From contig JALFTC010000006.1 in the NCBI GenBank assembly GCA_022779485.1, positions 1 to 64,000 of the forward strand: a stretch of 64,000 nucleotides of DNA, given 5' to 3'. This DNA comes from Ruminococcus sp. (GTDB taxonomy: Bacteria; Bacillota; Clostridia; Oscillospirales; Acutalibacteraceae). The translations under genes were made by a program, and so were the position numbers. The notes beneath the pieces are model-generated. The model was not told where the DNA came from, made no database searches, and saw only the letters and a program-made list of their open reading frames with translations. This document shows, piece after piece, positions 1 through 37,790 of this stretch (within the stretch, counting starts at the first letter, position 1; each line of letters starts with the position of its first letter).

Positions 1-884
1 CCTGTTGGCTTTGTTTCAATAGTTTCAGGTTTATCCTCAGGCATAGTTTCAGGCTTAGTAGTTTCAGCAGGAGTACTGCTTGGTTGCTTTGGAACAGTTG
101 TAAAAGGAACCTTACTATTTGTAGTAGGAGGAATAACAGTAGTATTATTTGGTGTAGAGTTGTTACCCTTTGGAGTTTCCTCGCTGTTTGCAGTAATCAA
201 GCCCTTGTCACTCTTGACAGCAGGAGCATTTGTCTGCTGAACTCTAATCTTTGCGTCAATAGAAATTGTGCTGTCGCTTGTGAAAAGCAAAGGAGAAAGG
301 TCATAGCAACAGTATTCAAAGAGGTAGTAGGACTTACCACCGCCAACTGTTACGCCAAGCTTTTGAATGTCGGTTGACTTTGTAAAGCTGGTGCCTGTCT
401 TTTGTATGCCTGATGCTGTATCCGGCTTGAATTTTGCCATATATCCGCTTAACTTATTACCTGACTTAGTAAAGCTTTTAACCGCATTTGATATATCGGT
501 AACTCTTACGAAAAAACTATCGGTTACTTCATTGGTAGTGCCTGTAAAATTAGCACAGTTAAAACCAAGGCTAAGGTAGGAGTTTAGGTTAATTGTACCT
601 GTGTTATCAACCTCAATAAATCTGTATCCTACTGTACCTGCTGACCAGTTTGTATCGCCGGAAATTGCATTGTCAACAGCAACATCATTGCCTTGGGTTG
701 TGCCTGTTGTAAGGAGTGATCCATCTTCGTAATACACATTTACGGTTGCACCAAACTCACCCATTCGGATAACTGTGTTTAGATAGTCTATCTTTGACGT
801 GAGCCATGAAAATGTGAAAGCTGTACACAAGATTAAAGCCATAGCACTAAGTACCACAGTTGAAAGGAAACTTCTCTTATTCAG
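1..884 (-). CDS. SipW-dependent-type surface protein, partial (C-terminus beyond left edge)
   Basis: The reading frame is open to the window edge, giving at least 294 residues. The N-terminus is a short basic stretch and a hydrophobic helix ending in TFSWLTS (about residues 24-30), the aromatic-Trp pattern of the other precursors in this cluster. The middle looks like a beta-rich extracellular domain. From about residue 225 it becomes Thr/Pro/Glu-rich (TTKPETMPEDKPETIETK), like a stalk. No ATG fits. A CTG at 882-884 gives LNKRSFLSTV, which mirrors MNKKSII of the neighbour at 1482-2069, and it overlaps the 3' end of the signal peptidase gene by 8 bp. A GTG 10 codons in is the alternative start. 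Probably a substrate of the adjacent SipW-like peptidase; function unknown. Confidence 0.7.
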   Translation of the reverse strand, partial: MNKRSFLSTVVLSAMALILCTAFTFSWLTSKIDYLNTVIRMGEFGATVNVYYEDGSLLTTGTTQGNDVAVDNAISGDTNWSAGTVGYRFIEVDNTGTINLNSYLSLGFNCANFTGTTNEVTDSFFVRVTDISNAVKSFTKSGNKLSGYMAKFKPDTASGIQKTGTSFTKSTDIQKLGVTVGGGKSYYLFEYCCYDLSPLLFTSDSTISIDAKIRVQQTNAPAVKSDKGLITANSEETPKGNNSTPNNTTVIPPTTNSKVPFTTVPKQPSSTPAETTKPETMPEDKPETIETKPT

Positions 885-1476
885 TTTTGTCTTCAGAGTT
901 TCCGTCTTTCTTGACGGATTCTTCAAATTCTCTTGTAACATTATACTGAACCTTTCTTTTGACTAATCTAAACAGTATTATAAATTCATTACTAAATGCA
1001 AGTAAAATTATTAACAATACTGCAACAAGACCGTATGGTGTGATAAAAAAGCTATATAGAACACCGATAATCGGTACTTCAAATGCCATTTTTCCTAAAA
1101 TCTGCCCCTCATAAACTATAGGGTCAATCTCATGGTTTGCATCACCCTTGGTAGTAAAAAGGAATTGTCCATTAACTTCCTGTATATCTTCTATCCTGTG
1201 GGTAATCACCTTGCCGGCATAACTACCCTCCATACCGTTATATGTGATGATGTCACCGATTTGAAGTGATTTTACATCCACCTTTTTCGTCAATATAACA
1301 TCACCCACAGCCAGCTCAGGTTCCATACTCGGGGAGCTGACACGGTATACCGAATATCCAAAAATTGTGGTATTTCCACCGGTAACTCTCTGCACAAAGA
1401 AAAATATTACCGTAAGCACCATTATAGCCAAAAACACAAAACTAAGGGCGCTGAGTATTTTTCTGACAATCTTCAT
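877..1476 (-). CDS. sipW: SipW-type (ER-type) signal peptidase I
   Basis: A 199-aa membrane protease that would cleave N-terminal signal anchors of exported proteins. Visible features are an N-terminal membrane helix (about 6-28), the nucleophile box SSPSMEP with Ser50, and VITHRI with His93. His replaces the Lys of ordinary bacterial signal peptidase I, the hallmark of SipW/ER-type enzymes. A GDxI/GD core follows, then a C-terminal hydrophobic helix (about 140-170) and a charged tail. I chose the ATG at 1474-1476 because an AGG lies 9 bases upstream; a GTG 8 codons earlier would overlap the preceding gene. It sits between two likely substrates. SipW of Bacillus matures TasA and TapA; the same role here is inferred. 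Confidence 0.9.
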   Translation of the reverse strand: MKIVRKILSALSFVFLAIMVLTVIFFFVQRVTGGNTTIFGYSVYRVSSPSMEPELAVGDVILTKKVDVKSLQIGDIITYNGMEGSYAGKVITHRIEDIQEVNGQFLFTTKGDANHEIDPIVYEGQILGKMAFEVPIIGVLYSFFITPYGLVAVLLIILLAFSNEFIILFRLVKRKVQYNVTREFEESVKKDGNSEDKTE

Positions 1477-1481
1477 ATTTC

Positions 1482-2069
1482 TTATACCTGATAAATACAC
1501 AGATTGCCAAGTGTTATATTAGATAACTCTGTCGCCTGAGATGATAAGGAAATATACCATTCGATAGTAGTACCATTCTTATCATCACTATCAGCTGGGA
1601 CAGATACATTCTCAATTACTGTGACAGTTTGTGTTCCTGCCGAAACACCAGTCTCTGAATTTAAAGGAGATACAGTTCCAATGCGAATGTTATCAGGAAA
1701 TGTACTATTTTCAAGTTTAACAGTAACCTTTGCATCCTTTGGTGACAGATTACTTTTACTGGCTATATTATACACAATGGTTTTAAAATGAATTTTCTTA
1801 CCAGGCTGAAGGGTAGTGTTTATTGTACCTAATGAACCCGATGAACTATTTCTGCTCAATTCAGTATAGGTCAGTCCTTCATCTGAAGAATAAGATGTCT
1901 TAGCATCAATATAATTCATTTTTTCATTCAGACTCATAGTCCTGTTAAAACCCATACTGTTTGCCTCGGCACTACCTGACCTGTCAAACCAAGAGTATGT
2001 CATTACAATCAGTGAAACAATGCACAGTGATGCAACGAGACATCTGTAAATTATTGACTTTTTATTCAT
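1482..2069 (-). CDS. Small SipW-dependent-type exported protein
   Basis: A 195-aa protein with a basic N-terminus, a hydrophobic helix (about 8-23) and the motif MTYSWFDRS (23-31), typical of signal anchors processed by SipW-type peptidases. The rest is Ser/Thr/Asn-rich and predicted beta-rich, ending in TLGNLCIYQV. It is the smallest complete precursor of the operon and lies directly upstream of the second signal peptidase, the arrangement seen for TasA-like proteins with SipW. A TasA/camelysin-like fibre or anchor subunit is the best guess; sequence similarity beyond the N-terminus is not evident by eye. The ATG has AGGTGATGC upstream. Confidence 0.75.
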   Translation of the reverse strand: MNKKSIIYRCLVASLCIVSLIVMTYSWFDRSGSAEANSMGFNRTMSLNEKMNYIDAKTSYSSDEGLTYTELSRNSSSGSLGTINTTLQPGKKIHFKTIVYNIASKSNLSPKDAKVTVKLENSTFPDNIRIGTVSPLNSETGVSAGTQTVTVIENVSVPADSDDKNGTTIEWYISLSSQATELSNITLGNLCIYQV

Positions 2070-2088
2070 ATTGCATCACCTGCTTTCT

Positions 2089-5000
2089 CTAACTATTATC
2101 AAGACTAAGTTGAATTACACCGTCTTTAAAGCCTGTTGATTTATATTTTGTATTATCTCCAATTGTTTCTGAGCCGGAGCTGTTCCAAGTGCTGCCACCA
2201 TCAGGATTCCTTCTGTTTAGAACAAAAGAAGTATATCCTGTTGGTATAGGACACTCATAAATATGATTAGTTGAGTTTATACAAACCATTCTTGCTTCGA
2301 TAGGAGTTCCATCGGTTTTACTAAATTCAACTGTAAAATACGGATTCGCATTATTGCCCCATACATTGTTTACATCAATTTTCAAAACCTTATCACCCCA
2401 GTAGCCTGAGCCGGAATAGGTTGCAGGAACGGGTGTGATTGTTATTGTTCCATCTGAAGCAAGTACTTGACAACTATAATGCTTTGTTGTTACATTATCT
2501 TCATCTTCACCTGCTACACTGTATGAGCCATTAAGACCACTCGGAACAAAGCAACTTGCTTTCAGCTTGTATTCGCTCTCTACATTAATAGTGGTGGTAA
2601 GGGTAAAGGTAGTGCCTTGTGTCAAATACATTTCAAATGGACTTGAGGCATCTTGAAGATTGGTAGTATCTTCGCCAATTTCTAACGAAAGTCCATCAAG
2701 ATTTCCCCAGTTGATTGTAATCATGTATAGTTTGTCAAACTTTGCTAATATCGTAGTATCTGCAGTTACATTTTCATATGTATAACTTGCTGACGGACTT
2801 AATTGAGCACTACTAAGGTAAAAACCCATAAACTTATAGGTATTTTCTGTAGCACTTGCAGTAAGAACTACATTTGAACCGTATTCCACGGAAACACTTG
2901 ACACTGTACTTGATTCAGTACTTGATGCAGGTTTTACTGTAGCGGATACATTGTCACCAGTTATCGCATCTCCGGTTCTGAAATCAACACATTTGACTAC
3001 AACCTTAGGATTATCAGATATATATACCTTTACAGTCTTGTTAGCAACTACAGATGTAATATTATGTGTCCATTCACCAGATTTGGGAGAATATGTATAA
3101 CCTGTTAATTCCACATTGCTGATATAATATCCTGAAGCAGGAGTAACAGAAAGTGACGCTGTGTCATTATATTCAATCAGACTGGAGCTTTGCTCAACTC
3201 CGCCGATTGTAACAGTTGCCTTGTCTGTTGTGATTTCGCCGTTGTAATAAACCTCAACAGACACCTTCGGGTTATCCTTAACTGTAATTACAATGCTGAC
3301 ATCTTCTGTTAAGTTGGTGAACTTGTGAGTCCATTCACCTTTTGCAACATTGTAGGGGTAGCTTCCCCGTGGTTCAATGTTATAGATATAATAACCATCT
3401 GCCGGTTTAACTTTTAATGTTGAACTTCCATTATATTCAATCTGTCCGTCGCCGGTAACAGTTGCCTTGCCGGGATCCTTCACGCCGTTATACATAATTG
3501 TAACGGAAATTGTAGGATTTGCCGCATACTTTGCCTTTAATTTTACATCGCTGGCTGTATCATATACGCTTTCTGAGGTGATTAGCTCTTCATCCAGATA
3601 CCAGCCAATAAATGAGGAATTGTCTTTTTTAGGTGTTGGAAGATCGCCATAAGTACTGTTGTAAGCAACCTTTTTGGAAGTTGGAGTTACACTTCCCCCA
3701 TCAGGGTCAAAGGTAACGGTGTATTCAATGGGTTCATAAGTACCATAGAAAGTCATGTCACCGGTTGAACCGCTTGGAATTGTAGTTGTTAAAGAACCTG
3801 TTGTACTTCCAATGTGCCAACCGCTGAATTTATATCCATCCTTGGGTGCCGGAGAAGGAAGTGTTCTTTCGGCTTCAGTTGACTCAATGGTGTAAGTTTT
3901 TGGATTTAATGTATTATCTACTTTACTATTAATATGATATGTAATATTATATGTTATTGGTTTAAATGTTGCTTTTACTGTAACATTCTGAGCCGGCATA
4001 GTAAAGCTATCTGTAAATGCTGTGTCGTTAAAGGTTAAGGTGTCAAGCTCATAGCCCTCATTAGGAGTAATCTTAAGGTCTGAAACTGAAACAGTAGCGT
4101 TAGCCAATGCTTCTGTTGGACCGGAAACAGTACCTTTATCGTTATGAGTGTATGTGATACTATAATTTGTTGGTGTTGTATATTCATACCACAGTTTGTA
4201 GTTAGAAGAATCGGTTGTATCAAGCCAGATTACTACATCCTTTTTGGTTGTGGCAGTAGTATCTAAAAACTTTAGGAGTCGGGATTCTTCTGTATTTGTA
4301 TCATTTGCTCTGTATGTAAGGGTAAATTTGTTATCCTTTGTATTATTGTGGAAAGTATGACCGGAGTTACTACTACCGCCATACCAGACACCTTCATTGC
4401 CGTTACCGGTATGGATGTAGAAGAATTGATCTTTGTCACCATATGTTTCATTAATTGTTCCTGACAGTTCAGCTACAGTCTTACCAGTTTCATACTTATA
4501 ACGTCCATCACTAACCTTAGTAAAAGGCATATCTAAATATTTATAATCCCATTTATGTTCATTAAATCTACCTGTAATGTAATAGGTGACTACGTCAGAT
4601 ACTACAACATTAACAGTTGTTTCCACCGATTTATATCCATCGCAGGTTGCAACAACCTTAAAGGTGTAGGTACCTGCTACGGTTGGAGTAAATACAACTG
4701 ATGCAGAAGGATCGCTTGTTGTTACCACTGATGTATCACTGCCAAATGAGCCACCAAGTCCGGTTGTTTCTGTGAATGTGTATGTAACATCACCGGCAGA
4801 GCTATGTTTATTCTGAAGTTCTGCTGTCAATGTGAAGGAAGTGTTCTTCTCAACAGCTTCCGGTACTGATGTAAGATTTACGCTGTCGGCAAGGTTAGGT
4901 GTAAGGTTTACAACACTAAAAGTATCAGTATCTGCAAGAACATAGATGTTACCGTCATAGAGAACAGTCAAAAGCTTATATCCTGTACCCACAGGAAGTG

Positions 5001-6135
5001 CTGATGTGTCCACCTTACCGTCAGTAAGAGAAACTTCTGTGTAATTAGTTCCATCATAAAGATAGTATTTGAAACGATTAGTTAAGCCCAAACTGGAAAT
5101 ACCGGGACCGGGCTGTGTTGAAGTGCTTACAGAAAGTTTTCCTCCAACATTAACTGTGTCATGAATAGTGGTGGTTGCAGTCTTGGTTGAGCCTGCGTCA
5201 TAGGAATAAAGATAGTTTTTATCATTAAAATCAAGTTGTGCAAAGGCTGAATCATCTTTTTTATCACGAACAATATATGTACCGCCGGCTTCTATCGACC
5301 CTTTAAGACCGGATGCCCAGTGACCTTGATAATATTGAATATCTGTTGATAAGGTTGCGACACCGAATATATGTTCTACATCAATATTATGTGTTATTGA
5401 AAGGGAAACTGTTGCTTTAGCACTGCCAGTGTTATTATTAGACATAAAATAGTAATTAGTTTGTTTCCATTCAGATTTCTCACCGCCGTAAACCATTACC
5501 TTTTCGCCTTTAAGTACAGACAACAAGTTTTCGTCTGTAACTACAGGGTCGGGGTCAGGGTCAACCGGGTCGCTACCTGAATAGGTTGACCAAGATGTAG
5601 TATCCAAATCATAACAATTCATTCCACTTGTGATTGCTACATCGTTTTGGGTGATTTTATTGTTTTGGTCACTCTTAAATAAAACATAATTAAAATCATA
5701 TGTTTTATCTCCGATAAGAGTATATGAATAATAATACTTTCCATCAATAGAACCCATGCTTGTCATTTGAGGGGAGGAAGTCCAATCGGTATAATTATAG
5801 TTAGTATTATTAGAATCCCTGTACCATATATGAGCATAAACTGTTGAGTATTCGGTGGCACTACGGAAATAAATTGTATCTCCAACTTTTATACCAGTTG
5901 AAAGTAACTCTACACTCGCCCCGCTTGCTATTAAATCTTTTGTCTTTGCAGGGGTGGTGTTTGTGGTGGTGTTTATGTCTTCAAGGAGTGATGTTGTATC
6001 GGTAATGGTTAAATTACTGCCAAGGGTCTTTGCTCCTGCCGAGAAATTGGCACAGCACAGCATAGCTAATGCCAAAACTAAAGCAGTAGCTGTACTGATA
6101 TACCTTGTGCAATTTTCAGCAAATGACTTTTTCAT
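2089..6135 (-). CDS. Giant secreted multi-repeat surface protein with starch-binding-like and InlB-type repeats
   Basis: A 1348-aa protein with a conventional Sec signal peptide (cleavage likely after SAGA, about residue 35), unlike its neighbours. Modules by eye: about 85-185 resembles a CBM26-type starch-binding domain (aromatic-rich, MNCYDLDTTSW end); an Asp-Pro linker (PDPDPDPVV) near 195; Ig-like beta domains near 420-510; a stretch starting YYITGRFNEHKW; a GYELDTLTFN-type bacterial repeat; two Listeria-Bacteroides (Flg_new/InlB B) repeats with GYKFSGWHI and SFIGWYLDEE; two tandem repeats containing GYYI and GEWTH; and a C-terminal aromatic beta domain. No LPXTG, SLH or dockerin is visible, so how it stays on the cell is unknown. 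It is probably an adhesin or ligand-binding partner of the fibre. Carbohydrate binding is inferred. Confidence 0.75.
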   Translation of the reverse strand: MKKSFAENCTRYISTATALVLALAMLCCANFSAGAKTLGSNLTITDTTSLLEDINTTTNTTPAKTKDLIASGASVELLSTGIKVGDTIYFRSATEYSTVYAHIWYRDSNNTNYNYTDWTSSPQMTSMGSIDGKYYYSYTLIGDKTYDFNYVLFKSDQNNKITQNDVAITSGMNCYDLDTTSWSTYSGSDPVDPDPDPVVTDENLLSVLKGEKVMVYGGEKSEWKQTNYYFMSNNNTGSAKATVSLSITHNIDVEHIFGVATLSTDIQYYQGHWASGLKGSIEAGGTYIVRDKKDDSAFAQLDFNDKNYLYSYDAGSTKTATTTIHDTVNVGGKLSVSTSTQPGPGISSLGLTNRFKYYLYDGTNYTEVSLTDGKVDTSALPVGTGYKLLTVLYDGNIYVLADTDTFSVVNLTPNLADSVNLTSVPEAVEKNTSFTLTAELQNKHSSAGDVTYTFTETTGLGGSFGSDTSVVTTSDPSASVVFTPTVAGTYTFKVVATCDGYKSVETTVNVVVSDVVTYYITGRFNEHKWDYKYLDMPFTKVSDGRYKYETGKTVAELSGTINETYGDKDQFFYIHTGNGNEGVWYGGSSNSGHTFHNNTKDNKFTLTYRANDTNTEESRLLKFLDTTATTKKDVVIWLDTTDSSNYKLWYEYTTPTNYSITYTHNDKGTVSGPTEALANATVSVSDLKITPNEGYELDTLTFNDTAFTDSFTMPAQNVTVKATFKPITYNITYHINSKVDNTLNPKTYTIESTEAERTLPSPAPKDGYKFSGWHIGSTTGSLTTTIPSGSTGDMTFYGTYEPIEYTVTFDPDGGSVTPTSKKVAYNSTYGDLPTPKKDNSSFIGWYLDEELITSESVYDTASDVKLKAKYAANPTISVTIMYNGVKDPGKATVTGDGQIEYNGSSTLKVKPADGYYIYNIEPRGSYPYNVAKGEWTHKFTNLTEDVSIVITVKDNPKVSVEVYYNGEITTDKATVTIGGVEQSSSLIEYNDTASLSVTPASGYYISNVELTGYTYSPKSGEWTHNITSVVANKTVKVYISDNPKVVVKCVDFRTGDAITGDNVSATVKPASSTESSTVSSVSVEYGSNVVLTASATENTYKFMGFYLSSAQLSPSASYTYENVTADTTILAKFDKLYMITINWGNLDGLSLEIGEDTTNLQDASSPFEMYLTQGTTFTLTTTINVESEYKLKASCFVPSGLNGSYSVAGEDEDNVTTKHYSCQVLASDGTITITPVPATYSGSGYWGDKVLKIDVNNVWGNNANPYFTVEFSKTDGTPIEARMVCINSTNHIYECPIPTGYTSFVLNRRNPDGGSTWNSSGSETIGDNTKYKSTGFKDGVIQLSLDNS

Positions 6136-6144
6136 AATAACCTC

Positions 6145-7254
6145 TTATTCTGCATCCTTTGTGTAATCTGTAATGGTATAGTAAACTTCTGTTTCACTGG
6201 TTCTGCCATCTGCATACCAGGTGTATGTATGGGTTTCACTCGTTCCCTGCTTTGAAAATTCAAAATCAACACGGGTAACATTTGATATGTCACTAATAAC
6301 AGCAGTTTTCTTAATACAGTTATTGTCGTCATATAAATATAACAACGGTTTATCCTCTGCGCCGATGATTGGATTGTTATTACTATCATAGGCTGTATAT
6401 GTACCGTTATCACAATCTGACATAAACTGCTCAACTGTTCCGTCATAAATGTAGATATACTTATTGGATGTATCATACCAGTTTGTATTTATCTGAAAAT
6501 TAACATTAAGACCGGTATTTGACGCAATAAGTGGATCATCGGAAGTATCTTCGCCTTCAAGCCAGATTGTTATCTCTACTTTAGCAGTTCTATTTCCACC
6601 CAATGTAAAAATCGGGCTTGCTTCACTTACACATTCAGAAAAAGCCTTTGGGTCTACTGTTGTTTTTGTAGTTGTGCTATTTGCAGGGGAATACTCAGCA
6701 CCTGAATTTGAGAAAATTGTTGTTTCTGTAGAACTGCCTATTGTTCTCTTAATTGCCATTCTTAATGAATTTGCAACAGCTGTTTCTTTACCGCCATATA
6801 CAGATTTTATAAATTGCGAATCAAAGAAAAACTTTGTATCTTGGCTACAGGTTGATGTAATATTAATATCAAAAGCAATATAGCTTACGCCTCTGTAATT
6901 TTTGTCAAGTTTAATGTATGAATCACCTTTTTTGTAATAGAAATTTTCACCATCTGCTGAAGAAACCTGAGACAGCTTTATTCCATCTACGAAATCAGCA
7001 TACTCGTTTAATGAAATATACTTACTGCCAATATCCTTACCCACACTTAAATTATGAAGATACTTATCATAATTCTCAGGGTTTCTTTTGATATTCCCTT
7101 CGTTAAGATTGAGATTCATATCTGTACTTTGTTCAATCCAGCTGTAGGTTGTAACTCCGCCGACAACTACCACAAGGATAAGTGCTACAACGGTGAGGAT
7201 AATATTAAATTTTCTGCCCTTTGGTGAAAGTGGCTTTTTCTCTCTCCTATCCAT
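6145..7254 (-). CDS. SipW-dependent-type surface protein with extra C-terminal module
   Basis: A 369-aa protein. Basic cytoplasmic start, membrane helix (about 17-33) ending TTYSWIEQS (35-43). The core (about 44-258) shows the family marks seen across this operon: VSSADGENFYY, SLRMAIKR, and KVEITIWLEGEDTSDD near 225-240. After the core there is an added module (about 260-369), rich in Tyr/Trp/Asp and ending YYTITDYTKDAE; it resembles the aromatic beta modules of the giant protein just downstream. This suggests a decorated subunit such as a tip or adhesive protein. The gap to the downstream gene is only 9 bp. The start has AAAGGAGGTGC. Confidence 0.75.
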   Translation of the reverse strand: MDRREKKPLSPKGRKFNIILTVVALILVVVVGGVTTYSWIEQSTDMNLNLNEGNIKRNPENYDKYLHNLSVGKDIGSKYISLNEYADFVDGIKLSQVSSADGENFYYKKGDSYIKLDKNYRGVSYIAFDINITSTCSQDTKFFFDSQFIKSVYGGKETAVANSLRMAIKRTIGSSTETTIFSNSGAEYSPANSTTTKTTVDPKAFSECVSEASPIFTLGGNRTAKVEITIWLEGEDTSDDPLIASNTGLNVNFQINTNWYDTSNKYIYIYDGTVEQFMSDCDNGTYTAYDSNNNPIIGAEDKPLLYLYDDNNCIKKTAVISDISNVTRVDFEFSKQGTSETHTYTWYADGRTSETEVYYTITDYTKDAE

Positions 7255-7284
7255 TATAGCACCTCCTTTTAGAATAATTTTAAT

Positions 7285-9702: not shown

Positions 9703-9730
9703 TTTTGCACCTCCTCTTTATTTCTAATTT

Positions 9731-10876
9731 TTACTTGCCGTTACTAATTCCAACAAACTGGAACTTTGAACTGAATTTGCCACCGACAAATTCTTTTCTT
9801 GCCTCAGCATCACAACCATCAATCCAAATTGTTAAATCAACCTGTGTTGTGTAGTATTTGTCATTGGGATTAGCCTTGGTAGTTGTGCCGATTTTTCCGT
9901 ACTTTGGTGACGCATCATCAATTGATGAAAGTTTATTTGTTCCTACAATATAGTTGCCACCTTCAATCTGATGAGTACTATTAAGTTCATTCTTTACATA
10001 TTTGCCATCTGAACCTTGTGTATAATACCAATGAGTATCAGGTGAAGGAACATATTCTGGATATGCGTGAGTTGATGATAATGGACCTAAGCTCTTATAA
10101 TACGCATCATTCTTTTCTTCGGTAGGTCCTTCGATTGCAACCTTTTTATTCTCAGTATTAATATTACAGAAAATATCAGGTCTTGGAACCCACAGCAACT
10201 TTGTAGTTGGATTATCAGGATTAGTGATTGTATCAATAAAAGCAGCCCTAGCTGCACCAACAACGCAGTCCTTGGAATAATACTTACCGCTAGCATCCGG
10301 CTCCGACACCAATCTGTATTCTTCTTTTTCAGCATCTGATGGGGTCGTTGTCCAAACCAAAGGTTTTGCAGCAGTATCAGAATTTGGTTTAATTTCTGAA
10401 ATACCCTTAAAATAAGAACTATTTGTCAGATAAATATCAACCGGAATAGTTGAACGGAAATATAGAGTTTTATGAATATAGTCTACATTTTCAGCTAAGC
10501 TTTTTTTGGGCCACTCAGCATTAACATCCGGTCTTTTTATCGTGTCATTATCCATGTGTTTCTCAAGTACAGGATACTTGAAGTTAGTTGGCACACCATC
10601 ACCGGTAAGTTCCAATGTAAGGGCTGAGGTAGAATAATCTACTCCTCTTACCATTGTTATGTCATTTTTAAATGTTTGATTGTCAAGACTGACCTCCAAT
10701 GAAAGACCGGCGGAAAACTGAATCTGTTCTGTATCAACATTATCTGCAAGATTTCTGAAAAACCATGCATATGTTGTAATAGCAAGTAACGCAACAATTA
10801 AAATAACATTAACTACTAAAAGGAGGGTTTTCTTTGTGCTTTTAGATATGAAATTTGGTTCTTTAATATCTTTCAT
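9731..10876 (-). CDS. SipW-dependent-type surface protein, fibre-subunit-like
   Basis: A 381-aa protein: hydrophobic helix 17-34 followed by TTYAWFFRN (34-42). The mature part carries the shared marks AARAAFIDT followed by LLWVPRPD (the AR-x-AF...W-x-P pattern), and near the C-terminus QVDLTIWIDGCDAEARKEF, then a final short strand and stop. The family core runs to the C-terminus without an added module, so it looks like a structural subunit. Two Cys in GCD and the VVGA region could matter for cross-linking, but this is speculation. Strong AAAGGAGG upstream of ATG. Confidence 0.75.
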   Translation of the reverse strand: MKDIKEPNFISKSTKKTLLLVVNVILIVALLAITTYAWFFRNLADNVDTEQIQFSAGLSLEVSLDNQTFKNDITMVRGVDYSTSALTLELTGDGVPTNFKYPVLEKHMDNDTIKRPDVNAEWPKKSLAENVDYIHKTLYFRSTIPVDIYLTNSSYFKGISEIKPNSDTAAKPLVWTTTPSDAEKEEYRLVSEPDASGKYYSKDCVVGAARAAFIDTITNPDNPTTKLLWVPRPDIFCNINTENKKVAIEGPTEEKNDAYYKSLGPLSSTHAYPEYVPSPDTHWYYTQGSDGKYVKNELNSTHQIEGGNYIVGTNKLSSIDDASPKYGKIGTTTKANPNDKYYTTQVDLTIWIDGCDAEARKEFVGGKFSSKFQFVGISNGK

Positions 10877-10888
10877 AATTTCCTCCTT

Positions 10889-13237: not shown

Positions 13238-13254
13238 TTGTAATCCTCCTTTCA

Positions 13255-15567
13255 TTAATCCTTATCTTCTATTTCTTCAATAGCCTTTGGATTTTGTTTG
13301 ATTTTCTTTTTCATTTTGGCTATGAAATCCTTGGTTTTTTGCTTTTCAGCTTTAACCTTTTGAGCCTCACGCTCTTTGATTTCTTTCACCTTTTGATTAT
13401 ACTCTTTTTCAAGCTTTCTTTCAAGTTCTTTCAGCTTTTGGTTAAACTTCTTTTCCTCTTCGGAATAAGCCTTATCCTTTAGTTTTGTTACCTTGGCAAT
13501 TTCGCTGTCGTGACGCTTTCTCTCCTTTGCAAGTGAATCGGCTGTGTCACGGTGGAGCTTTTCAAGCTCTTTTGCGTGGCTATCGTTAACCTTGCGAAGC
13601 TCTTTCTCCTGGTCATCCTTGAGAACTTCAATCTTTGCGTCAAACAGTCTTTGCTGTTTTTCGTTGACCTTATTAAGGGCTTCTTTATCATTTTCAAAGG
13701 ACTTTTGCTGTTTATCAAGTGCCTTTTGATGTTCATCATCTTTAGCACTCATCTTCCTTTGGAAGTCCTTATTCATAGAATCAATTTTATTTAAATTTTC
13801 AGTATTGATTCTGTCAATTTCTGTCTTGTGAGCACTCTGTAAGCCCTGAACCTCTTGGTCATGCTTGGTGTTGATTATGTTGACCTCTGCGGTGTGCTTA
13901 TCGTTGATGCTCTTGATTTCGTTTTTATGATTGAGAGCCATTGTGTCAATCTCATTTTTGTGATTGGCATTAATGGTTGCAACCTCTTGTGCGTGTTCTT
14001 TGCGTTCGGTTTCAATCTGATTGTTTAACCCTGCAATCTCTGAATTTAAGTTTGCAATCTCCTGCTTTTGGTTTGCGATAATTGCATCTCTTTCGGCAAT
14101 ATCTTCTTTTAACTTTTCGATAACACCATTGAGTCTTGCAATCTCGTCCTTTAGGGAGGCAATCTCTGCACGAAGCTGTTGCTCAAGTTCAAGTAGTCGC
14201 TTGATTTCGGCTCTTGCCTGTTCAAGCTCTTCTGTTAGTCTTGCAACCTCTGCTTTCAGCTCTTCAATTTCTCTCTTCTGCTCCTCAATAATTGCAAGGA
14301 GTCTTTCAATTTCTTCTTGGAGCTCCTTAATCCTATCCTCAAGAGCCATAATTTTCTGCTTGAGGGCTTCAATCTCATCGTAAGCGGCATTCAGCTTATT
14401 GGTAAGCTCAACAATCTGCTGTTCACGGAGCTGAAGGGTCATATTTAGCTGTGCAACTGTTGCTTTCAGTTTGTGAATCTCGGCTTCTCTTTCACGAACC
14501 TCTTTTATTCTAAGGTTCATTTCCTCCTCACGAATGGCTCTGACTTTCTGTTCAAAAGCCTTTCGCATTTCAGCGTCGGGGTCAGCAGCCCTTCGAGTTT
14601 CCTCGGCTACTTCCTCCAGATACTTTTCGTGAAGTGCCTGTTTTAAGCCCGGATTTTGAGAAATATCCATTACAAAACGGTTATAGCTCATCAATCCGTA
14701 GATTTCATCCTTGATTTCCTTGTTCATTTCACCGGTAAATTCATTCTTTTCAACAACGAAACCCGGTTTTTGATATTTTTCAAGGAAAGTCCAAAGCTGA
14801 ACAGCCTCTTTAAAGTTTGGGTTTTTCTTTAGGAGGTTAGTCATTGTGAGAGGAGAACGAACTTCCTCACAACCTTTAAGCTCCTGCATAAGCTGAGAAT
14901 TTAGTATGCCCTGTGTAATCTGACGAATTCTTGCAACTCGGGCGAAGTCGGAAAGATTTTCAATATCGTCATCCACATCAAATTTGTCAACCTCGTGATT
15001 TTCGTCACGAAAGTCAAAGCTGAATTCAATTTTTTGTCCGTGATAGTCAATGTCACGGTGCATATGAGTTTCGTAGATGGAGTCCTCAGGAGTTTCCTTT
15101 AGCTTTGCGAAACGGGAGGAAATAAATCTGGAGATATTGTTAAGCAGGGTGTGGAGCATCCTGTTTTCATATATATTAAAGGTATCTTCTCGTCTGACAT
15201 TCAGGAGTTTGTCAGGTACAACATCACCGTGGTCGTCAATTTTTGCAATATAGTTTGCGTGGGACGCAAGGTGCTTTACTGTGTCGGGACTAACCTTTTT
15301 TATCTTCTGAACATTAACAATTTCTTCTTCTGTCTTAATGGTACGGCGCATTTCGTCAACGGCGTTTTGAATGTATGGCAAAGCATATTCAATGGCTTCA
15401 ACCCAGTCCATATCAATATATCTGGAGTAGGTTTCACCGCTATGTACATCTTCGCCGTTGTCGGCTCTGGACATTCCATCCTTGTAGTAGTTAAAGGTGT
15501 AATCGTCCTTTAGGGTTTCGTGCATTTCGTAATATGCACGGTAAAGTTTATTCAGTTTTTTGCCCAT
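13255..15567 (-). CDS. DUF2357/McrC-like head fused to a long coiled coil
   Basis: A 770-aa cytoplasmic protein without signal or membrane segment. Residues about 1-320 resemble the DUF2357 family that partners McrB-type NTPases: LLNVRREDTFNIYENRMLH and RSPLTMTNLLKKNP are the recognisable stretches (assignment by eye). From about 330 to 765 it is an almost unbroken coiled coil with Glu/Lys/Gln heptads and hendecad-like NHKNEI...NHKNEI repeats, ending Lys-rich. I see no PD-(D/E)xK nuclease motif, which full McrC/DUF2357 proteins normally carry. The ATG at 15565-15567 has GAGGTG upstream; a GTG three codons earlier is the alternative. It follows the McrB-like ATPase gene, so the two probably form a complex at the inner face of the envelope. 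Confidence 0.75.
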   Translation of the reverse strand: MGKKLNKLYRAYYEMHETLKDDYTFNYYKDGMSRADNGEDVHSGETYSRYIDMDWVEAIEYALPYIQNAVDEMRRTIKTEEEIVNVQKIKKVSPDTVKHLASHANYIAKIDDHGDVVPDKLLNVRREDTFNIYENRMLHTLLNNISRFISSRFAKLKETPEDSIYETHMHRDIDYHGQKIEFSFDFRDENHEVDKFDVDDDIENLSDFARVARIRQITQGILNSQLMQELKGCEEVRSPLTMTNLLKKNPNFKEAVQLWTFLEKYQKPGFVVEKNEFTGEMNKEIKDEIYGLMSYNRFVMDISQNPGLKQALHEKYLEEVAEETRRAADPDAEMRKAFEQKVRAIREEEMNLRIKEVREREAEIHKLKATVAQLNMTLQLREQQIVELTNKLNAAYDEIEALKQKIMALEDRIKELQEEIERLLAIIEEQKREIEELKAEVARLTEELEQARAEIKRLLELEQQLRAEIASLKDEIARLNGVIEKLKEDIAERDAIIANQKQEIANLNSEIAGLNNQIETERKEHAQEVATINANHKNEIDTMALNHKNEIKSINDKHTAEVNIINTKHDQEVQGLQSAHKTEIDRINTENLNKIDSMNKDFQRKMSAKDDEHQKALDKQQKSFENDKEALNKVNEKQQRLFDAKIEVLKDDQEKELRKVNDSHAKELEKLHRDTADSLAKERKRHDSEIAKVTKLKDKAYSEEEKKFNQKLKELERKLEKEYNQKVKEIKEREAQKVKAEKQKTKDFIAKMKKKIKQNPKAIEEIEDKD

Positions 15568-15628
15568 GGAATACACCTCATTTTTAAATTAATTATAAAG
15601 AAATATATAAAGATAAACGCAATAACGC

Positions 15629-15650
15629 CACCTCCCCAAAAGGGGAGGTG
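15629..15650 (-). repeat. Perfect GC-rich hairpin between ATPase and coiled-coil genes
   Basis: A 9-bp perfect inverted repeat (CACCTCCCC, loop AAAA, GGGGAGGTG) in the 90-bp space between the two genes. No U-tract follows on the minus strand, so it is not a standard terminator. It may be an mRNA processing or stability element, or a fragment of the GGGGAGGTGG-containing repeat also seen near 40640. Confidence 0.6.
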
Positions 15651-15657
15651 AATATTA

Positions 15658-17190
15658 TTAAACCATTTTTTGCAGTCTTCTCAGATATGCCTTACTTTCG
15701 CCCATATTCTCGGCACCGTAAAGGTGATCCATATAGGCAACAAGACCGTCAATTTCATCCCTGATGTATGAAAGGTTAAGGGATTCAAACTTTCTGAAGA
15801 TTTTTCTTGCAAGTACATAGTCAAGACCGTCAATTTCTTCGCCACCGCAAGCAACATAGCAAGGTGTGAAGGACTGAATCTGACGCATAATACGGTTACC
15901 GAAAGCTATTCTGAAGTGCTCGATAACATAATCGTCAAGGAGGTTAAGCTTGTCAAGCAAATCCTTGGAAACAGGAGACTGTTTCTTAGCATTTTCAAAG
16001 AGCTGTTCAAAGTAACGGTAATTCATTACAACCGGCTCGGTATCAGGAGCTGTAAACGGAGTTCCCTTGCTGTCGATATCAATAGGCATAGCACGGTCGT
16101 AAACCTTATCGGCAATAGCGAATGTGGAGTCGTCGTTGTTGGCTGTGCCCAGGTACCACATATTTGGCGGTAGCTTAAAGTTACCCTGTTCAAAGTGCTT
16201 TGGATCGTCAGGCCATACATTTGGAACCATAGAGATTACCCACTCATCCTTATCAGGCATTTCAAGGATGGAGAGCATTTCAGCGAAGTAATACTCAACA
16301 CGGGCGATGTTCATTTCGTCCAAAACAACTAAGTAGATATTTTCGTTATATGTAGCCTCGTACATAGCACGGAGAAGCTCGGTTTCGTTAAATCTCTTTG
16401 TAAATTCATTGAAGTAACCGAACAACTCTGTTCTATCTCTCCAAGATGGCTGAACAGGTGTGATAACTGAGTCATTGCATACAAACTTACCAAAGGCACG
16501 GGCAAGAGAAGTTTTACCTGTACCGGAGATACCTTGTAGGATGATAAGACGGTTACTACCGAATGACGCTACAAAGTAACGGATAAGCTTGATGTCATAG
16601 TAAAGACCAAGTCTTGAACAAGCAAAGTTGCGGAATCTGTCGCAGAACTGCTCAAGTGTTATTGTCATATCATATACAGGTGGCTGATAGTCTGCCCAAA
16701 CCTCGTCGATATGGCACAGCTTGTAGAAACGCTGTGTTGTTTCTTCCTCTTCGCCATTGTTGAGTGCATCCATCTCTTCACCGGTAAGCTCGGAAATTTC
16801 GTTAGGATTAAGACCGATTTGAGAAACCTTCATAGAAAGGATTTTGTCCTTTTCAAGGTTGAGTCGCATAACCTCTTTTGTAAGGTGGTTAACCTCGGCA
16901 ACCAAATCGCCTGTGTCCTTAACTTTCCTTCTGTAACGGAAAAACTTTTTTAGGGACAGAATAACAAATATTACAATGAATACGAGGACAGCCGCAAGAA
17001 CAAGCATAGCAAAAATTGCAATTACCCACTCAAGACCTCCAAGCTCTGATGTGTAGTCGCTAATGATATTGCCGTATGCAGGGAAATTGAACATACCCGC
17101 AATACCCTTTCCAATTCCTACGAAAATGCTCCACAATGATGCGAAGAATTGTCCAAGGAATTCATATAAAAACTTAAATATTGTATCCAT
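15658..17190 (-). CDS. Membrane-tethered McrB-like AAA+ ATPase
   Basis: A 510-aa protein. Residues 1-35 are amphipathic/hydrophobic and 53-80 form a clear membrane helix, followed by a basic KKFFRYRRK stretch, a short coiled region and an acidic loop. The AAA+ module starts near 175: Walker A GISGTGKTS (220-228), a PSWRDRTELFGYFN stretch (249-261) typical of McrB, Walker B LVVLDEMNIA (287-296) with the McrB/MoxR-type DEMN, a sensor-1-like GTANNDD (348-354) and a DRA arginine (366). McrB proteins normally act in cytoplasmic restriction; a membrane anchor and a position inside a surface-protein operon are unusual. With the DUF2357-like protein downstream it may power assembly, sorting or gating of the surface apparatus (inference). 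Confidence 0.85.
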   Translation of the reverse strand: MDTIFKFLYEFLGQFFASLWSIFVGIGKGIAGMFNFPAYGNIISDYTSELGGLEWVIAIFAMLVLAAVLVFIVIFVILSLKKFFRYRRKVKDTGDLVAEVNHLTKEVMRLNLEKDKILSMKVSQIGLNPNEISELTGEEMDALNNGEEEETTQRFYKLCHIDEVWADYQPPVYDMTITLEQFCDRFRNFACSRLGLYYDIKLIRYFVASFGSNRLIILQGISGTGKTSLARAFGKFVCNDSVITPVQPSWRDRTELFGYFNEFTKRFNETELLRAMYEATYNENIYLVVLDEMNIARVEYYFAEMLSILEMPDKDEWVISMVPNVWPDDPKHFEQGNFKLPPNMWYLGTANNDDSTFAIADKVYDRAMPIDIDSKGTPFTAPDTEPVVMNYRYFEQLFENAKKQSPVSKDLLDKLNLLDDYVIEHFRIAFGNRIMRQIQSFTPCYVACGGEEIDGLDYVLARKIFRKFESLNLSYIRDEIDGLVAYMDHLYGAENMGESKAYLRRLQKMV

Positions 17191-17518
17191 AAGGATCTAC
17201 TCCCTCTTCTGTTCTTAAAAAAGTTTTTGCATTGTTTTCTCTCGTCTTATGAGAGATAGATTAATTATATATGGCATATAACTGTCGGTTTAATTCCTAC
17301 TGCTATCCTTTCAGATTCGACCGTCGCTTTGCTCACTCAGAATAACAAGGGAGGTGTTTTGCTCCCTCAGAATGGCTGTAGGAGAATTGCTTTACAATAA
17401 ATCTTCCTACCGTTGCTGACCCGATAGAAAGATTTATTGAGTTTTCATAAGCATTTGCCTAACCATAATCATTACTTCCTTTGGCTTGGCGTTAGAATAA
17501 TTCTGCTATTGCAGGGAA
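17191..17518 (-). repeat. Intergenic region with dispersed repeat
   Basis: 328 bp without a gene. Positions 17297-17355 match 34021-34080 by eye (CTACTGCT-TCCTTT-AGATTC, then GCTC-CTCAGAAT-ACA), a dispersed repeat. A CTCTC...GAGAG inverted repeat lies at 17242-17258. On the minus strand a TATAAT with a weak -35 (TTAAAC, 18-bp spacer) lies upstream of the ATPase gene, so a secondary promoter is possible but weak. The ATPase start has GGGAGTAG upstream. Confidence 0.5.
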
Positions 17519-18253
17519 TTATTCTTCTTTTTCGTCATTATCCGGCTTGTCGGAATTTTCATTTGCCTTTTGACTTGCCAGATATTCTTCAATAGCTTTT
17601 TGCTTTTGTGCCTCTGTCAGCTCGGCAGACTGAGCAGCCTCAGTTGCGGCGACAAGGGCTTTCTCTTTGGTATAAGCTACGATGTTCATAATTACTCGGA
17701 TAAGCTCATAGATGAAGAACAAAATCATTGGAAGAACAATTACAAAGAAGAATCCCCAGAAAGACTTGAGGAAATCATATACATTACCAACGCCTTCAAG
17801 TCGGGTTCCTTCATAATCATCAGTCTTATAAATACCGACAATCTTATTACCAGCTATCCATCCATCTGATTTGATATCGGAGATTTCATTATTATCACCC
17901 TTGGTAAGATAATAAGTTTTTCCGTACTGTTCTTTAGTCTTGACTATCCTATGGCATTTTACCATCAGATACTCCTGACCATTATCACCTGTGTATGTAC
18001 TCTGGAAAAAAACAATATCTCCCTTTTTATATTCAACCTCTTCATTTATAGTCTTACCAATAACTAAATCACCTTTGTACATTACAGGCTCCATAGACGG
18101 GGACTGTATTGCATTTAAAGTATAACCAAAAACATTAGGAGTCCCCGTGTCCTGAGATGTTAATGATAATGTCAATATTACTGCCGATACAAGTAGTATC
18201 ATAATAATAATTATATCAATAATAATATTCATTATTTTTTTTAAAATCTTCAT
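17519..18253 (-). CDS. sipW: SipW-type (ER-type) signal peptidase I with cytoplasmic tail
   Basis: A 244-aa membrane protease. N-terminal helix about 8-30, catalytic box QSPSMEP with Ser53, and KCHRI with His101 as the general base position, giving the Ser-His ER/SipW type. A second membrane helix lies near 165-190. Unlike the enzyme at 877-1476, it has a charged tail of about 50 residues (AQSAELTEAQKQ..., ending KPDNDEKEE) that could bind a cytoplasmic partner. It sits immediately downstream of the likely major fibre subunit (18311-19195), its most probable substrate. Having two such peptidases in one operon suggests divided substrate sets. Confidence 0.9.
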   Translation of the reverse strand: MKILKKIMNIIIDIIIIMILLVSAVILTLSLTSQDTGTPNVFGYTLNAIQSPSMEPVMYKGDLVIGKTINEEVEYKKGDIVFFQSTYTGDNGQEYLMVKCHRIVKTKEQYGKTYYLTKGDNNEISDIKSDGWIAGNKIVGIYKTDDYEGTRLEGVGNVYDFLKSFWGFFFVIVLPMILFFIYELIRVIMNIVAYTKEKALVAATEAAQSAELTEAQKQKAIEEYLASQKANENSDKPDNDEKEE

Positions 18254-18310
18254 CGCACGGGGGTCTCCATTTCAGTTTAATCTAATCTTACTTATCTTAC
18301 AAATCTAAGA

Positions 18311-19195
18311 TTATGCACCTGCTGGTAATGATTCTACTAAAGCAAAGTCTAATGTCAGGTCTGTAATAAGGTCTTCAGCATTTGCTATTCTTGAATAACA
18401 ATCGCTATCTTCACCATCAAGGTAAACATATACTCTAACAACATTAGTACCAGCTGCATTAGCATTTCCAAGGCTTATATAATCAGCCTTTGTAGCACCA
18501 AGATCAGCAGCTGCTGCGAGCTGTGTGTATGCAGCAGATGATACACCGTAAGTTGTTGTTGTAGAGTTTACATATTTATTACCTACAGCATCAATACCAA
18601 ATGTATGAGGTGCGCCATCAACGCCTACTACAACTACACGAAGAGCGTTCTTAACAGCTGAAGCATTTGATGCATTCCATGTAATATCAACACCTGTGAG
18701 AGCCATTTCAGCAGTTGCAGCACCACCGGTTACTTTACAGTAAATGTTTTCACCGTAAACAGCACCAGTTTTTCTTGTAGTTGTGAGCCAACCGCCCTTT
18801 GAAGCATCTCCAAGATCCTTAGCTGTGTTAGCATCAGGTTTGTCATCAGATTTAGCCTCGATAGTCTTAACATTTGTACCGAAAGTAGCATCTCCATAGT
18901 TGAATGATGCAGGGCTAAGCTGGAATCCATCAGGGTTAGTCTTTATTGCTCTATCTACTATAGTAGCATCAAGAATTGTATCATGGGAGAAGTCACCATT
19001 CTGTGCTTTTTCTGATTCAGAAAGGATAACAAGACCACTACCAGAAACTGTTCTCATTTTAAGACCTGCTGCTGATGCTGTTGGATCTGCAACGAACCAT
19101 GCATATGTTGCTGTTCCGAGGGCGATCATTGCTACCAGCAGCATTGCTACTGAAGAGATGAGAGCTCTCTTTCTTGTGTATAAACGTGTTTTCAT
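18311..19195 (-). CDS. TasA/camelysin-like probable major fibre subunit
   Basis: A 294-aa precursor. I chose the ATG at 19193-19195 because AAGGAGGAATT precedes it; earlier in-frame starts have no such site. A basic N-terminus (MKTRLYTRKR), helix 12-28 and TATYAWFVADPTA (28-40) form a classic SipW-type signal. The mature chain is Ala/Gly/Thr-rich with the core motifs ALRVVVVGVDG and VVRVYVYLDGEDSDCYS, then TDLTLDFALVES at the end. Its even, Ala-rich composition, strong ribosome site and position next to a dedicated signal peptidase point to an abundant structural subunit. Assignment to the TasA/camelysin superfamily is inferred from these features. Confidence 0.8.
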   Translation of the reverse strand: MKTRLYTRKRALISSVAMLLVAMIALGTATYAWFVADPTASAAGLKMRTVSGSGLVILSESEKAQNGDFSHDTILDATIVDRAIKTNPDGFQLSPASFNYGDATFGTNVKTIEAKSDDKPDANTAKDLGDASKGGWLTTTRKTGAVYGENIYCKVTGGAATAEMALTGVDITWNASNASAVKNALRVVVVGVDGAPHTFGIDAVGNKYVNSTTTTYGVSSAAYTQLAAAADLGATKADYISLGNANAAGTNVVRVYVYLDGEDSDCYSRIANAEDLITDLTLDFALVESLPAGA

Positions 19196-19486
19196 AGAGA
19201 AATTCCTCCTTAATAATTTTTTACCCCAAAACACCAAAGGGGTTGTTTTTCTGTATTCCAATGTTCTACCCTACTTCATTCCGCTCAGCAAACAGAACTT
19301 TTCAGAGGAACACTTTGGACTGGATTGGCTCCCTTGCGACAAGGGAGAATGGAAAATTAATTTGTTGGATAGATGTACTAAAGGCAAAGTGCCATATGGA
19401 GAACACTTTTTCACTCCCCATTCGCCTTTGGCGACAGCCACCTAATCCGATGGAGCCTAATTTGGTGAACCCCTTTTCCTATCCAA
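19196..19486 (-). repeat. Intergenic region with palindromic repeats and possible internal promoter
   Basis: 291 bp with no supported gene. It contains a perfect CTCCCTT-GCGAC-AAGGGAG palindrome (19329-19347) and a CATCCGATGGAGCC-like unit near 19440-19460, related to repeats at 29932 and 40813. On the minus strand TTGCTG (19286-19291) and TAGAAC (19263-19268) with a 17-bp spacer could be an internal promoter for the abundant subunit downstream. A short ACCCC...GGGGT stem lies at about 19223-19243 in the leader. Confidence 0.5.
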
Positions 19487-20404
19487 TTAAACCTCTTCGT
19501 CCTCTACGGAGAAGGTCATTGACATTTTCATATGACCGCCCAGGATTTCGTTTACACATTCGGGGTCGTTGCCCTCTACCCACATTAGGATTGTGTATTT
19601 GTCAACATCTCCGGGTTTGAAATCCTCGGACTTTGTTGTCATAATTTCTTTGCCGTTTATCCATGGCTCTGATTTTATAGATTTAGGAATAAACTTGCTG
19701 TCGTCTTCGGGCTCGTTGCTGTTGTGCTGTTTTTTGGCATAAACTGTTGGTTCACCGTTTTTGAAAACTAAAACTCTGACAGCCTCGTCCATACTCTTGG
19801 CAGCACCGTTATTTACCAGGGTTGCGTTGTAGTCAACTGATTCGTTGCCCACATTTTTGCAATAGAAGGTGTATGCAAGATAATTATCTCCGGCTGAGTC
19901 TGTGCCTGCAACAGCCTTTTTGTCATTGTTGCTGTCGCCGTTGTGACTTCCGCCGTCAATTGTTTTATCTTCCTTATTTGTGTAGTTATCAAGATAACTG
20001 ATGTCGCCGTCCATAGACATATTGTCTGTGAGCCAAGCATATGTAATGTTTGTAACACCGTCCACAGAGTCACCGGAAAGGATTGTTTCGGGGTCTTTGA
20101 AATCCGAAGTTTCGCTAAGGATAATACCCTTTTGCTCGGCAAGCCTATCAACATCAATTACAAGGTCACCGGCTCTTGTCCACCAGAACATCAATATCCA
20201 CAATATAAATAGGAATGCTATAAGGAGCATTGTGAGCCAAAACAGAAGTCTTTTTCTTCTTTTTGTTTTGTCAAGGACAGCCGCATCTCTGGCTTGACCA
20301 AAGTCACCGTAGGACGACTCCTTTGCAGTTTCTTTAGCGCCTTTTTCGGTAAGCCTGCTAAGGTCACGAGGAGTAAAATCCTGATTATTATTTTTTTTAG
20401 ACAA
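19487..20404 (-). CDS. Surface-cluster membrane protein, atypical signal anchor
   Basis: A 305-aa protein starting at TTG (20402-20404) with GGAGG 9 bases upstream. It has a 50-residue charged cytoplasmic N-terminus, a Trp-rich membrane helix (52-73, ILWILMFWW) and an extracellular part. It shares core motifs with its neighbours (AVRVLVFKNGEP; TILMWVEGNDPECVNE, then MKMSMTFSVEDEE at the end). The usual T-Y-x-W motif is missing at the end of the helix; ITYAWLTDN appears about 45 residues later instead. It may therefore stay membrane-anchored and act as a fibre base or assembly factor rather than a cleaved subunit (inference). Confidence 0.72.
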   Translation of the reverse strand: MSKKNNNQDFTPRDLSRLTEKGAKETAKESSYGDFGQARDAAVLDKTKRRKRLLFWLTMLLIAFLFILWILMFWWTRAGDLVIDVDRLAEQKGIILSETSDFKDPETILSGDSVDGVTNITYAWLTDNMSMDGDISYLDNYTNKEDKTIDGGSHNGDSNNDKKAVAGTDSAGDNYLAYTFYCKNVGNESVDYNATLVNNGAAKSMDEAVRVLVFKNGEPTVYAKKQHNSNEPEDDSKFIPKSIKSEPWINGKEIMTTKSEDFKPGDVDKYTILMWVEGNDPECVNEILGGHMKMSMTFSVEDEEV

Positions 20405-20469
20405 GGTTTATCTCCTCCCTTAGAGTAACCAAAATTTTAACTATACTATAATGAGTTATATACTGATTA

Positions 20470-21291
20470 TTAACTTATTTGACCGTTACCGCCAAATGTA
20501 AGGGCAGCCTCCATTGTAGCCTCCTGAATGTTGTTGATACATTCAGGGTCTTCACCCTCAAACCAAACTCTTACTGTTACCTTTTGAGGTTCAAGCTGTT
20601 TAAGGTCGCAGATTTTGTTTGCATCACTGTAAACCATTGGCTTTGACAAATCAAATGTGGTTTGGTTTGCAACTGCTGTGCCTTTGTTTGGCTCCCAAAT
20701 TACTGTTTTGCCGGCTTCGTTGGTAAAGCTGAAACGAACAGCCCTGACAACATTTGCCTTGCCGCCTGTTTCCGTAGTGCTTACATTAGTACCGCCGATG
20801 TTACCATCCTCGGAGGTTGTGAGGTGAACAGGCAAGTCCTTTGTGGCTATAAGGTAAAGGTCAAACTCAAGAAATGTGTTCTTGTTTCTTTCCTTTTCTG
20901 TTCCGCCCTGACTGTAAAACCTCTGTCCGTTTGATGTTGTAACAGGGTCAAGCACCTGGTCGTTCATTGTGGTATTGAAACGGTCTGTCAGCTCTTTGTC
21001 AATCATTCTTGATGTAACTGTCTTGACATAGGCGTCAAAGTTACTTCCGTGATTTTCTGTGCTGATACGAAGGTCCGGTGCTGTGCCGATTTTCATCTCC
21101 AGCTTTTCAACATTGGCAAGGGTACTTATTGTAAACCAAGCAAATGTAACAAGTACAAGGCACATAAAAGAAATGAAAAGCAAAACCCAACTTGTTTTTC
21201 TCCTAACTCGAGCATTAACCTGCTCCAAAATCTCCGCTTCCCTTTGAGCCTCTCTAAGCTCCATAGAGATTTTTTCCTCTTCATTGTACAT
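20470..21291 (-). CDS. First gene of cluster: SipW-dependent-type surface protein
   Basis: A 273-aa precursor. Start ATG at 21289-21291, with GGTGAT just upstream; a GTG three codons earlier is possible. The N-terminal 33 residues are charged and helical (EEKISMELREAQREAEILEQ), the helix spans about 34-50, and TFAWFTIS (49-56) marks the likely processing zone. The mature core has TSNGQRFYSQGG, AVRFSFTNEAGKTVIWEPN and KVTVRVWFEGEDPECINN near the C-terminus, the cleanest version of the cluster signature. It is promoter-proximal, 65 bp before the next gene. Probably a fibre or base subunit. Confidence 0.75.
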   Translation of the reverse strand: MYNEEEKISMELREAQREAEILEQVNARVRRKTSWVLLFISFMCLVLVTFAWFTISTLANVEKLEMKIGTAPDLRISTENHGSNFDAYVKTVTSRMIDKELTDRFNTTMNDQVLDPVTTSNGQRFYSQGGTEKERNKNTFLEFDLYLIATKDLPVHLTTSEDGNIGGTNVSTTETGGKANVVRAVRFSFTNEAGKTVIWEPNKGTAVANQTTFDLSKPMVYSDANKICDLKQLEPQKVTVRVWFEGEDPECINNIQEATMEAALTFGGNGQIS

Positions 21292-21355
21292 ATTAATCAC
21301 CGCCTTCAGGCAAACCGCCGTTAATTAAAGGTATAATTTGTCTATTAACAAAAGT

Positions 21356-21384
21356 ATTATAGCTCAACTAAAAAATTTTTTCAA
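21356..21384 (-). promoter_or_regulatory. Sigma-A-type promoter of the surface-protein operon
   Basis: On the minus strand, TTGAAA (21379-21384), a 17-bp spacer and a perfect TATAAT (21356-21361) lie about 65 bp upstream of the first gene. This is a strong vegetative-type promoter and the only good one upstream of the 21-kb gene run. Confidence 0.75.
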
Positions 21385-37643: not shown

Positions 37644-37667
37644 AATCCAGCAAATTAAATAATGCCA

Positions 37668-37790
37668 CTTATCAAGAGCGACTGAGGGACAGGCCCTGTG
37701 AAGTCCGGCAACCTGCATATGCAAGGTGCCAAATCCTGCGGTATAACCGAAAGATGAGTTTTTCACACCGTCTTTCGACGGTGTTTTTTA
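37668..37790 (+). promoter_or_regulatory. SAM-I (S-box) riboswitch with terminator
   Basis: The aptamer (37668-37758) has the conserved blocks CTTATCAAGAG, GAGGGACAGGCCC, TGAAGTCCGGCAACC, AAGGTGCCAAATCCTGC and GAAAGATGAG. The expression platform is a terminator: stem ACACCGTC / GACGGTGT (37765-37784) and a T6 run. With SAM bound, transcription ends before metK, giving feedback control of SAM synthesis. Confidence 0.97.

Follow-up and report, generated by a model that had tools for sequence, protein, structure and literature searches.

A SipW-linked gene row around a membrane-anchored McrB-type NTPase, a candidate surface-fibre system in gut Clostridia

Here, we describe a row of 14 genes from Ruminococcus sp. 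(assembly GCA_022779485.1, contig JALFTC010000006.1; the analysed stretch of 64,000 nucleotides, positions 1 to 64,000, is referred to as the window), in which a membrane-anchored nucleoside triphosphatase (NTPase) of the McrB type and a coiled-coil DUF2357 protein are encoded together with two SipW-type signal peptidases and nine membrane-anchored precursors. There is good support for the association between this NTPase clade and the fibre genes, and on balance we favor, with moderate confidence, the explanation that the locus encodes an adhesive surface fibre that is processed by SipW and put together at an NTPase derived from McrBC and tethered to the membrane. An earlier note on this DNA had proposed such an ATPase-assisted fibre system; its observation is confirmed here, down to the counts of same-strand genes, precursors and peptidases, and its interpretation is partly supported. 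All genes lie on the minus strand, from window position 21300 to the contig end at position 1, in the order P1, P2, P3, Sip1, NTPase, DUF2357 protein, P7, P8, P9, P10, G11, P12, Sip2, and P14 (labels coined in this analysis).

Linkage was assessed for 154 unique NTPases that were sorted by membrane helix, tandem state, and flank (3 kilobases on both sides). Among 115 non-tandem NTPases with a membrane helix, 87 had such flanks; a SipW-type peptidase was encoded within three genes of 85 of these 87, a DUF2357 gene within two genes of all 87, at least two precursors at 82, and P2 at 81. The two loci lacking SipW within three genes are L038, where a peptidase lies four genes upstream, and L273. 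Soluble relatives (n = 21, 17 flanked) had SipW in 0 of 17 cases and a DUF2357 match by the same profile in 7 of 17. Co-occurrence of the NTPase-DUF2357 pair with SipW and precursor genes, the check suggested in the earlier note, is far above chance. Tandem membrane NTPases (n = 15, 13 flanked) lacked SipW in 12 of 13 cases, and the remaining one is probably the gene that is split in L046. The same probably holds for the one flanked member of the three tandem NTPases without a helix.

The same association is apparent at the level of genomes and in the phylogeny. Across 295 genomes from the order, 31 have the NTPase (E 1e-10) and 23 have P2 (E 1e-8), with both in 22; the one P2 without the NTPase is a fragment (G326). 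SipW-type peptidases were found in 113 of the 295, including 27 of the 31 with the NTPase and all 23 with P2, and in 86 genomes without the NTPase; SipW is thus the more widely spread, and the NTPase pair marks a subset of SipW genomes. The NTPase was further detected in 29 of 59 relatives at E 0.001 (one match being weak), in 21 of 391 genomes of a class sample (E 1e-40), and in 54 of 398 genomes of a phylum sample (E 1e-10), where the 53 genomes besides the own one have best scores of only 62–132 bits and the 20 loci inspected had neither a membrane helix nor SipW. In a FastTree phylogeny of 140 NTPase domains, all 108 SipW-linked sequences fall into one clade (0.96), which also takes in three contig-edge copies (L059, L066, and L096) and the L046 split gene; L208 and L273 lie outside it, nine tandem NTPases form a separate clade, and the outgroup found for the linked NTPases consists of soluble NTPases with the NxD motif. 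The genome samples are not independent draws, the relative loci listed are the best 80 of at least 565, and the protein database search returned at least 8000 candidates, of which 120 were listed. Gene layouts of some relatives were obtained with a greedy open reading frame (ORF) picker, and some of its antisense ORFs are spurious and mask NTPase genes. The gut of goat, cattle, deer, or sheep is named in many record titles among the best 80 loci.

Seven loci (L264, L269–L272, L274, and L275) carry tandem NTPase-DUF2357-NTPase cassettes with membrane helices but lacking SipW; in most of them, a smaller protein and a large one (about 900–1480 amino acids) follow. Their NTPases belong to a clade apart from the SipW-linked one. 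The L270 cassette stands right after genes that we take, by eye, to be secY, adk, map, rpoA, and rplQ.

The NTPase itself (15658..17190) contains the Walker A motif GISGTGKTS and the sensor NNDDSTF, a shortened NxD followed by D (GTANNDDS), in which N351, N352, and D353 are invariant in 15 sequences. Searched against the PDB, its profile matched nothing but McrB at E values up to 0.01 (best E 7e-8), in agreement with the membrane AAA+ ATPase of McrB type recognized in the earlier note. Its N-terminus comprises two neighboring hydrophobic windows that read as one long helix, with a charged segment between it and the NTPase domain; a library scan of the window proteins gave no FtsB-like match, only FtsL_2 at E 0.16. 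The partner protein (13255..15576) matches DUF2357 (PF09823) on its isolated N-terminus at E 2.6e-10, as do 13 of 14 family members, and also has a long SMC-like coiled coil, the C-terminus reading as coiled coil; the DUF2357 domain was missed when the full protein was scanned and was seen once the coiled coil had been cut off. No nuclease was matched on this protein in a scan that also missed DUF2357. In PDB searches, the full-length profile was swamped by coiled coils, and the profile of the N-terminus produced a single chance match and no McrC. In L038, L039, L041, and L048, the DUF2357 proteins have an extra C-terminal stretch of about 150 residues that is absent from the window copy.

Both peptidases, Sip1 (17519..18253) and Sip2 (877..1500), pass the TIGR02228 cut-off of 51.85 bits, with scores of 77.7 and 103.2 bits; against the narrower Bacillus SipW model NF046067, Sip1 stays below the cut-off (87 of 190 bits). 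In eight of the nine precursors, the helix is followed by a motif of the [T/L]-x-[AS]-W type: P1 (20470..21300, 276 amino acids, TFAWF), P3 (18311..19261 with a probable start at 19195, TYAWF), P7 (10889..13255, 788 amino acids, VLAWF), P8 (9731..10876, 381 amino acids, TYAWF), P9 (7285..9702, 805 amino acids, TYSWV), P10 (6145..7254, 369 amino acids, TYSWI), P12 (1482..2069, 195 amino acids, TYSWF), and P14 (1..941, cut by the contig end, TFSWL). The motif was found in 0 of 12 other membrane-start ORFs of at least 120 amino acids at window positions 21401–64000. Across the loci compared, a T-x-[AS]-W type end of the first helix was present in 54 of 61 P1 proteins, 105 of 107 P3, 11 of 12 P7, 62 of 76 P8, 45 of 55 P9, and 27 of 37 P10. 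It also occurred in 54 of 368 unassigned membrane-start ORFs of these loci, some of which are likely to be further precursors.

The exception is P2 (19487..20404, 305 amino acids), whose helix lacks the motif in the window; across the loci, only 5 of 97 P2 proteins have it, four of them as IISW. This loss suggests that P2 is probably a permanent, uncleaved anchor. A cytosolic [FI]TPxDL-type tail of P2 was considered as an NTPase contact and rejected, being present in only 27 of 56 relatives and confined to a Ruminococcus-like group.

Seven precursors have one core in common, as the earlier note had it. In hhalign comparisons, homology between P1 and P3 covers the greater part of both sequences (99.7%), and the C-terminal half of P2 is shared with P3 (98.5%) and P1 (97.5%). 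A core profile, trained with the window, L051, and L052 left out, finds P1, P2, P3, P7 (at its C-terminus), P8, P9, and P10 with E values from 1.6e-26 to 6.6e-7; it does not find P12 (E 0.39) or P14 (E 0.03 at 2 bits), and its match to G11 is doubtful (E 0.0054). The best of 40 control ORFs reaches E 0.76. Pfam and NCBIfam scans gave no match to the core above cut-off, and profiles of P2 and P3 found nothing in the PDB at E values up to 1. P1, P2, and P3 each have a near-invariant [WY].[ED]G.D..C stretch with one conserved cysteine, placed close to the C-terminus and ahead of the last strand.

The earlier note had proposed, as a check, to predict structures of the precursors and look for TasA-like folds. 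For P2, such a fold is favored by structure prediction, its model matching the TasA fibre in Foldseek at E 4.6e-4; the P3 model gave weak matches (best E 0.04). At the sequence level, PF12389 (TasA/camelysin) found nothing at E 0.001 when run on the source genome, whereas it did match in the Bacillus subtilis control, and it had no match in P1–P10, P12, or 56 P2 relatives. Profile comparison showed no clear relation of the mature precursor sequences to camelysin/TasA (1.5% for P3, 3.7% for P1, and 1.9% for P2); with signals kept, P2 reached 43% over 119 columns and P1 79% over 31 C-terminal columns. The precursors do carry a SipW-type signal: the P3 signal aligned to camelysin signals at 85.6% in an alignment that included wrong ORFs, and at 95.7% when redone with rows picked by the signal motif, a choice that favors the match. 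The SipW-type signal model TIGR04088 gave weak matches only (7 of 56).

Taken as a fibre system, the locus might work as follows. The precursors would be exported, presumably by Sec, and held in the membrane by the helix until Sip1 and Sip2 cut P1, P3 (which we guess to be the main subunit), P7–P10, P12, and P14 at the T-x-[AS]-W motif. The freed subunits would polymerize onto P2, probably by strand donation as in TasA, and the uncut helix of P2 would root the fibre. The NTPase would be anchored at this same site, with the DUF2357 protein stimulating it as McrC does McrB, and would spend NTP on collecting subunits, putting them in order, or passing them on; the long coiled coil of the DUF2357 protein would serve as a spacer in the cytosol. 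Adhesive modules may be presented by P9, G11, and further long proteins encoded downstream. G11 (2089..6135) is a 1348-amino-acid secreted protein with InlB repeats; the starch-binding module CBM26 stays below its cut-off of 28.1 bits both in G11 (18.4 bits) and behind the core of P9 (20.4 bits). In six long proteins of related operons, CBM26 exceeded the cut-off in two (100 and 41.5 bits), InlB-type repeats were present in three (one also with CBM26), BspA-type leucine-rich repeats in one, and nothing was recognized in one. Starch adhesion, suggested earlier for the window, is hence plausible in two relatives, whose precursors carry CBM26.

The NTPase pair might instead control export, positioning the export machinery, Sip1, and the precursors, or gating cleavage, with fibres that form by themselves. 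Descriptions of the known SipW fibres include no NTPase (the word "ATPase" is absent from the TapA, Bacillus cereus, and Clostridium perfringens papers searched), and a SipW gene directly precedes the NTPase gene in 98 locus rows (duplicates included); the NTPase is nevertheless followed more closely by P2, a predicted surface-exposed core protein, than by SipW, and we regard this account as unlikely. A role in phage defence, with the McrBC relative sensing infection at the membrane and the surface proteins acting as effectors or decoys, appears quite improbable: the NTPase is matched by a candidate model of PADLOC, PDC-M26A, at E 6e-41, and soluble NxD NTPases, the outgroup, are of a kind that Bell et al. 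(PMC11090510) treat as restriction systems, but no nuclease was seen in a scan that missed DUF2357 as well, SipW is missing from all 17 flanked soluble relatives, and the gene row is conserved and rich in structural genes. That the pair and the fibre genes are merely co-inherited as an operon without shared function is very improbable, since, even with many loci coming from one genus and hence not independent, linkage recurs under 17 family labels, co-occurrence is reciprocal, and the linked NTPases form a single clade.

Thirteen of the genes are complete, and the row is broken at P14 by the contig end at window base 1. The short gaps described earlier hold from P1 to Sip2 (−19 to 81 bases) with two exceptions, P2–P3 (225 bases) and Sip1–NTPase (328 bases); with the ATG at 941 as its start, P14 would share 65 bases with Sip2. 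The gap between Sip1 and the NTPase (17191–17518) holds a terminator-like hairpin. The single strong promoter proposed in the earlier note does not stand out: the candidate at 21384 scores 11 of 12 but is equaled by a match inside the DUF2357 gene, and the total of 29 promoter-like matches lies within 2 standard deviations of shuffled sequences (21.2, standard deviation 4.6). A near-identical genome (L051, an Oscillospiraceae metagenome-assembled genome) encodes an NTPase that is 99% identical, and its sequence runs past the contig break. There (L299:6838-12054), a P14 of 689 amino acids, a 202-amino-acid protein with a lipoprotein-like start, and a second P14 copy of 691 amino acids follow, a duplication that may explain the contig end. 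At gathering scores, Rfam gave two matches in the window and none at the fibre locus; one is a SAM riboswitch (37666–37760), and the gene behind it we take, by eye, to be S-adenosylmethionine synthetase.

The assembly of an adhesive fibre at the tethered NTPase would suggest re-use, for building at the cell surface, of a restriction-type NTPase pair, and it would mean that gut Clostridia have an adhesive fibre not yet studied, in some cases with starch-binding modules. A tentative extension, to which we give less credence, is a third energized route to Gram-positive fibres besides sortase and type IV pili, in which a restriction-derived, membrane-tethered GTPase hexamer would act across the membrane via the uncleaved anchor subunit, starting or extending donor-strand fibres that present swappable gut adhesins.

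Among the papers listed in literature searches, none joined the McrB/DUF2357 pair to SipW in its title or displayed abstract; a 2013 functional metagenomics study (PMC3682982) mentions McrBC and SipW once each, and the 11 others shown with it, out of 210, mention neither McrBC nor DUF2357. The protrusions of P. massiliensis were considered as an example and rejected, as its authors ascribe them to type IV pili and "SipW" does not occur there. TasA/TapA/SipW of B. subtilis and TasA/CalY of B. cereus share with the locus a SipW-type peptidase, the camelysin-like signal of P3, and, for P2, a TasA-like fold that is favored; TasA polymerizes by donor strand with TapA as the proposed starter ("ATP" is absent from one further paper on this). 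They differ in comprising few genes, with no ATPase mentioned in the papers searched, and in mature domains without clear profile relation to the precursors. The sipW-bsaABCRSD system of C. perfringens (PMC7395162) resembles the locus as a SipW-dependent extracellular polymer with accessory secreted proteins, and differs by its two-component regulator; the word "ATPase" does not occur in the text on it. McrBC and CoCoNuT restriction systems share the NTPase fold and the DUF2357 partner, whereas the NTPase of the locus is membrane-anchored and SipW-linked, with no nuclease seen. The closest counterpart is CoCoPALM, a McrBC branch named by Bell et al. (2024, eLife, PMC11090510), who give it a few lines and guess at pilus assembly; "undescribed", the word of the earlier note, is therefore too strong. 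Of ten papers that carry the name CoCoPALM, only that one and its preprint are relevant, judged by title. SipW precursors, an anchor, a fold, and adhesins are not named in the passages on CoCoPALM, and "SipW" does not occur in the main text; the locus would supply this little-explored branch with a defined set of substrates and with a function that can be tested. As presented there, CoCoPALM combines an NxD GTPase of the McrB type, fused to an FtsB-like membrane helix and a coiled coil, with a coiled-coil McrC homologue and a neighbor of the signal peptidase family, and the NxD motif, the nearby signal peptidase gene, and the DUF2357 McrC homologue with its coiled coil are all present at the locus.
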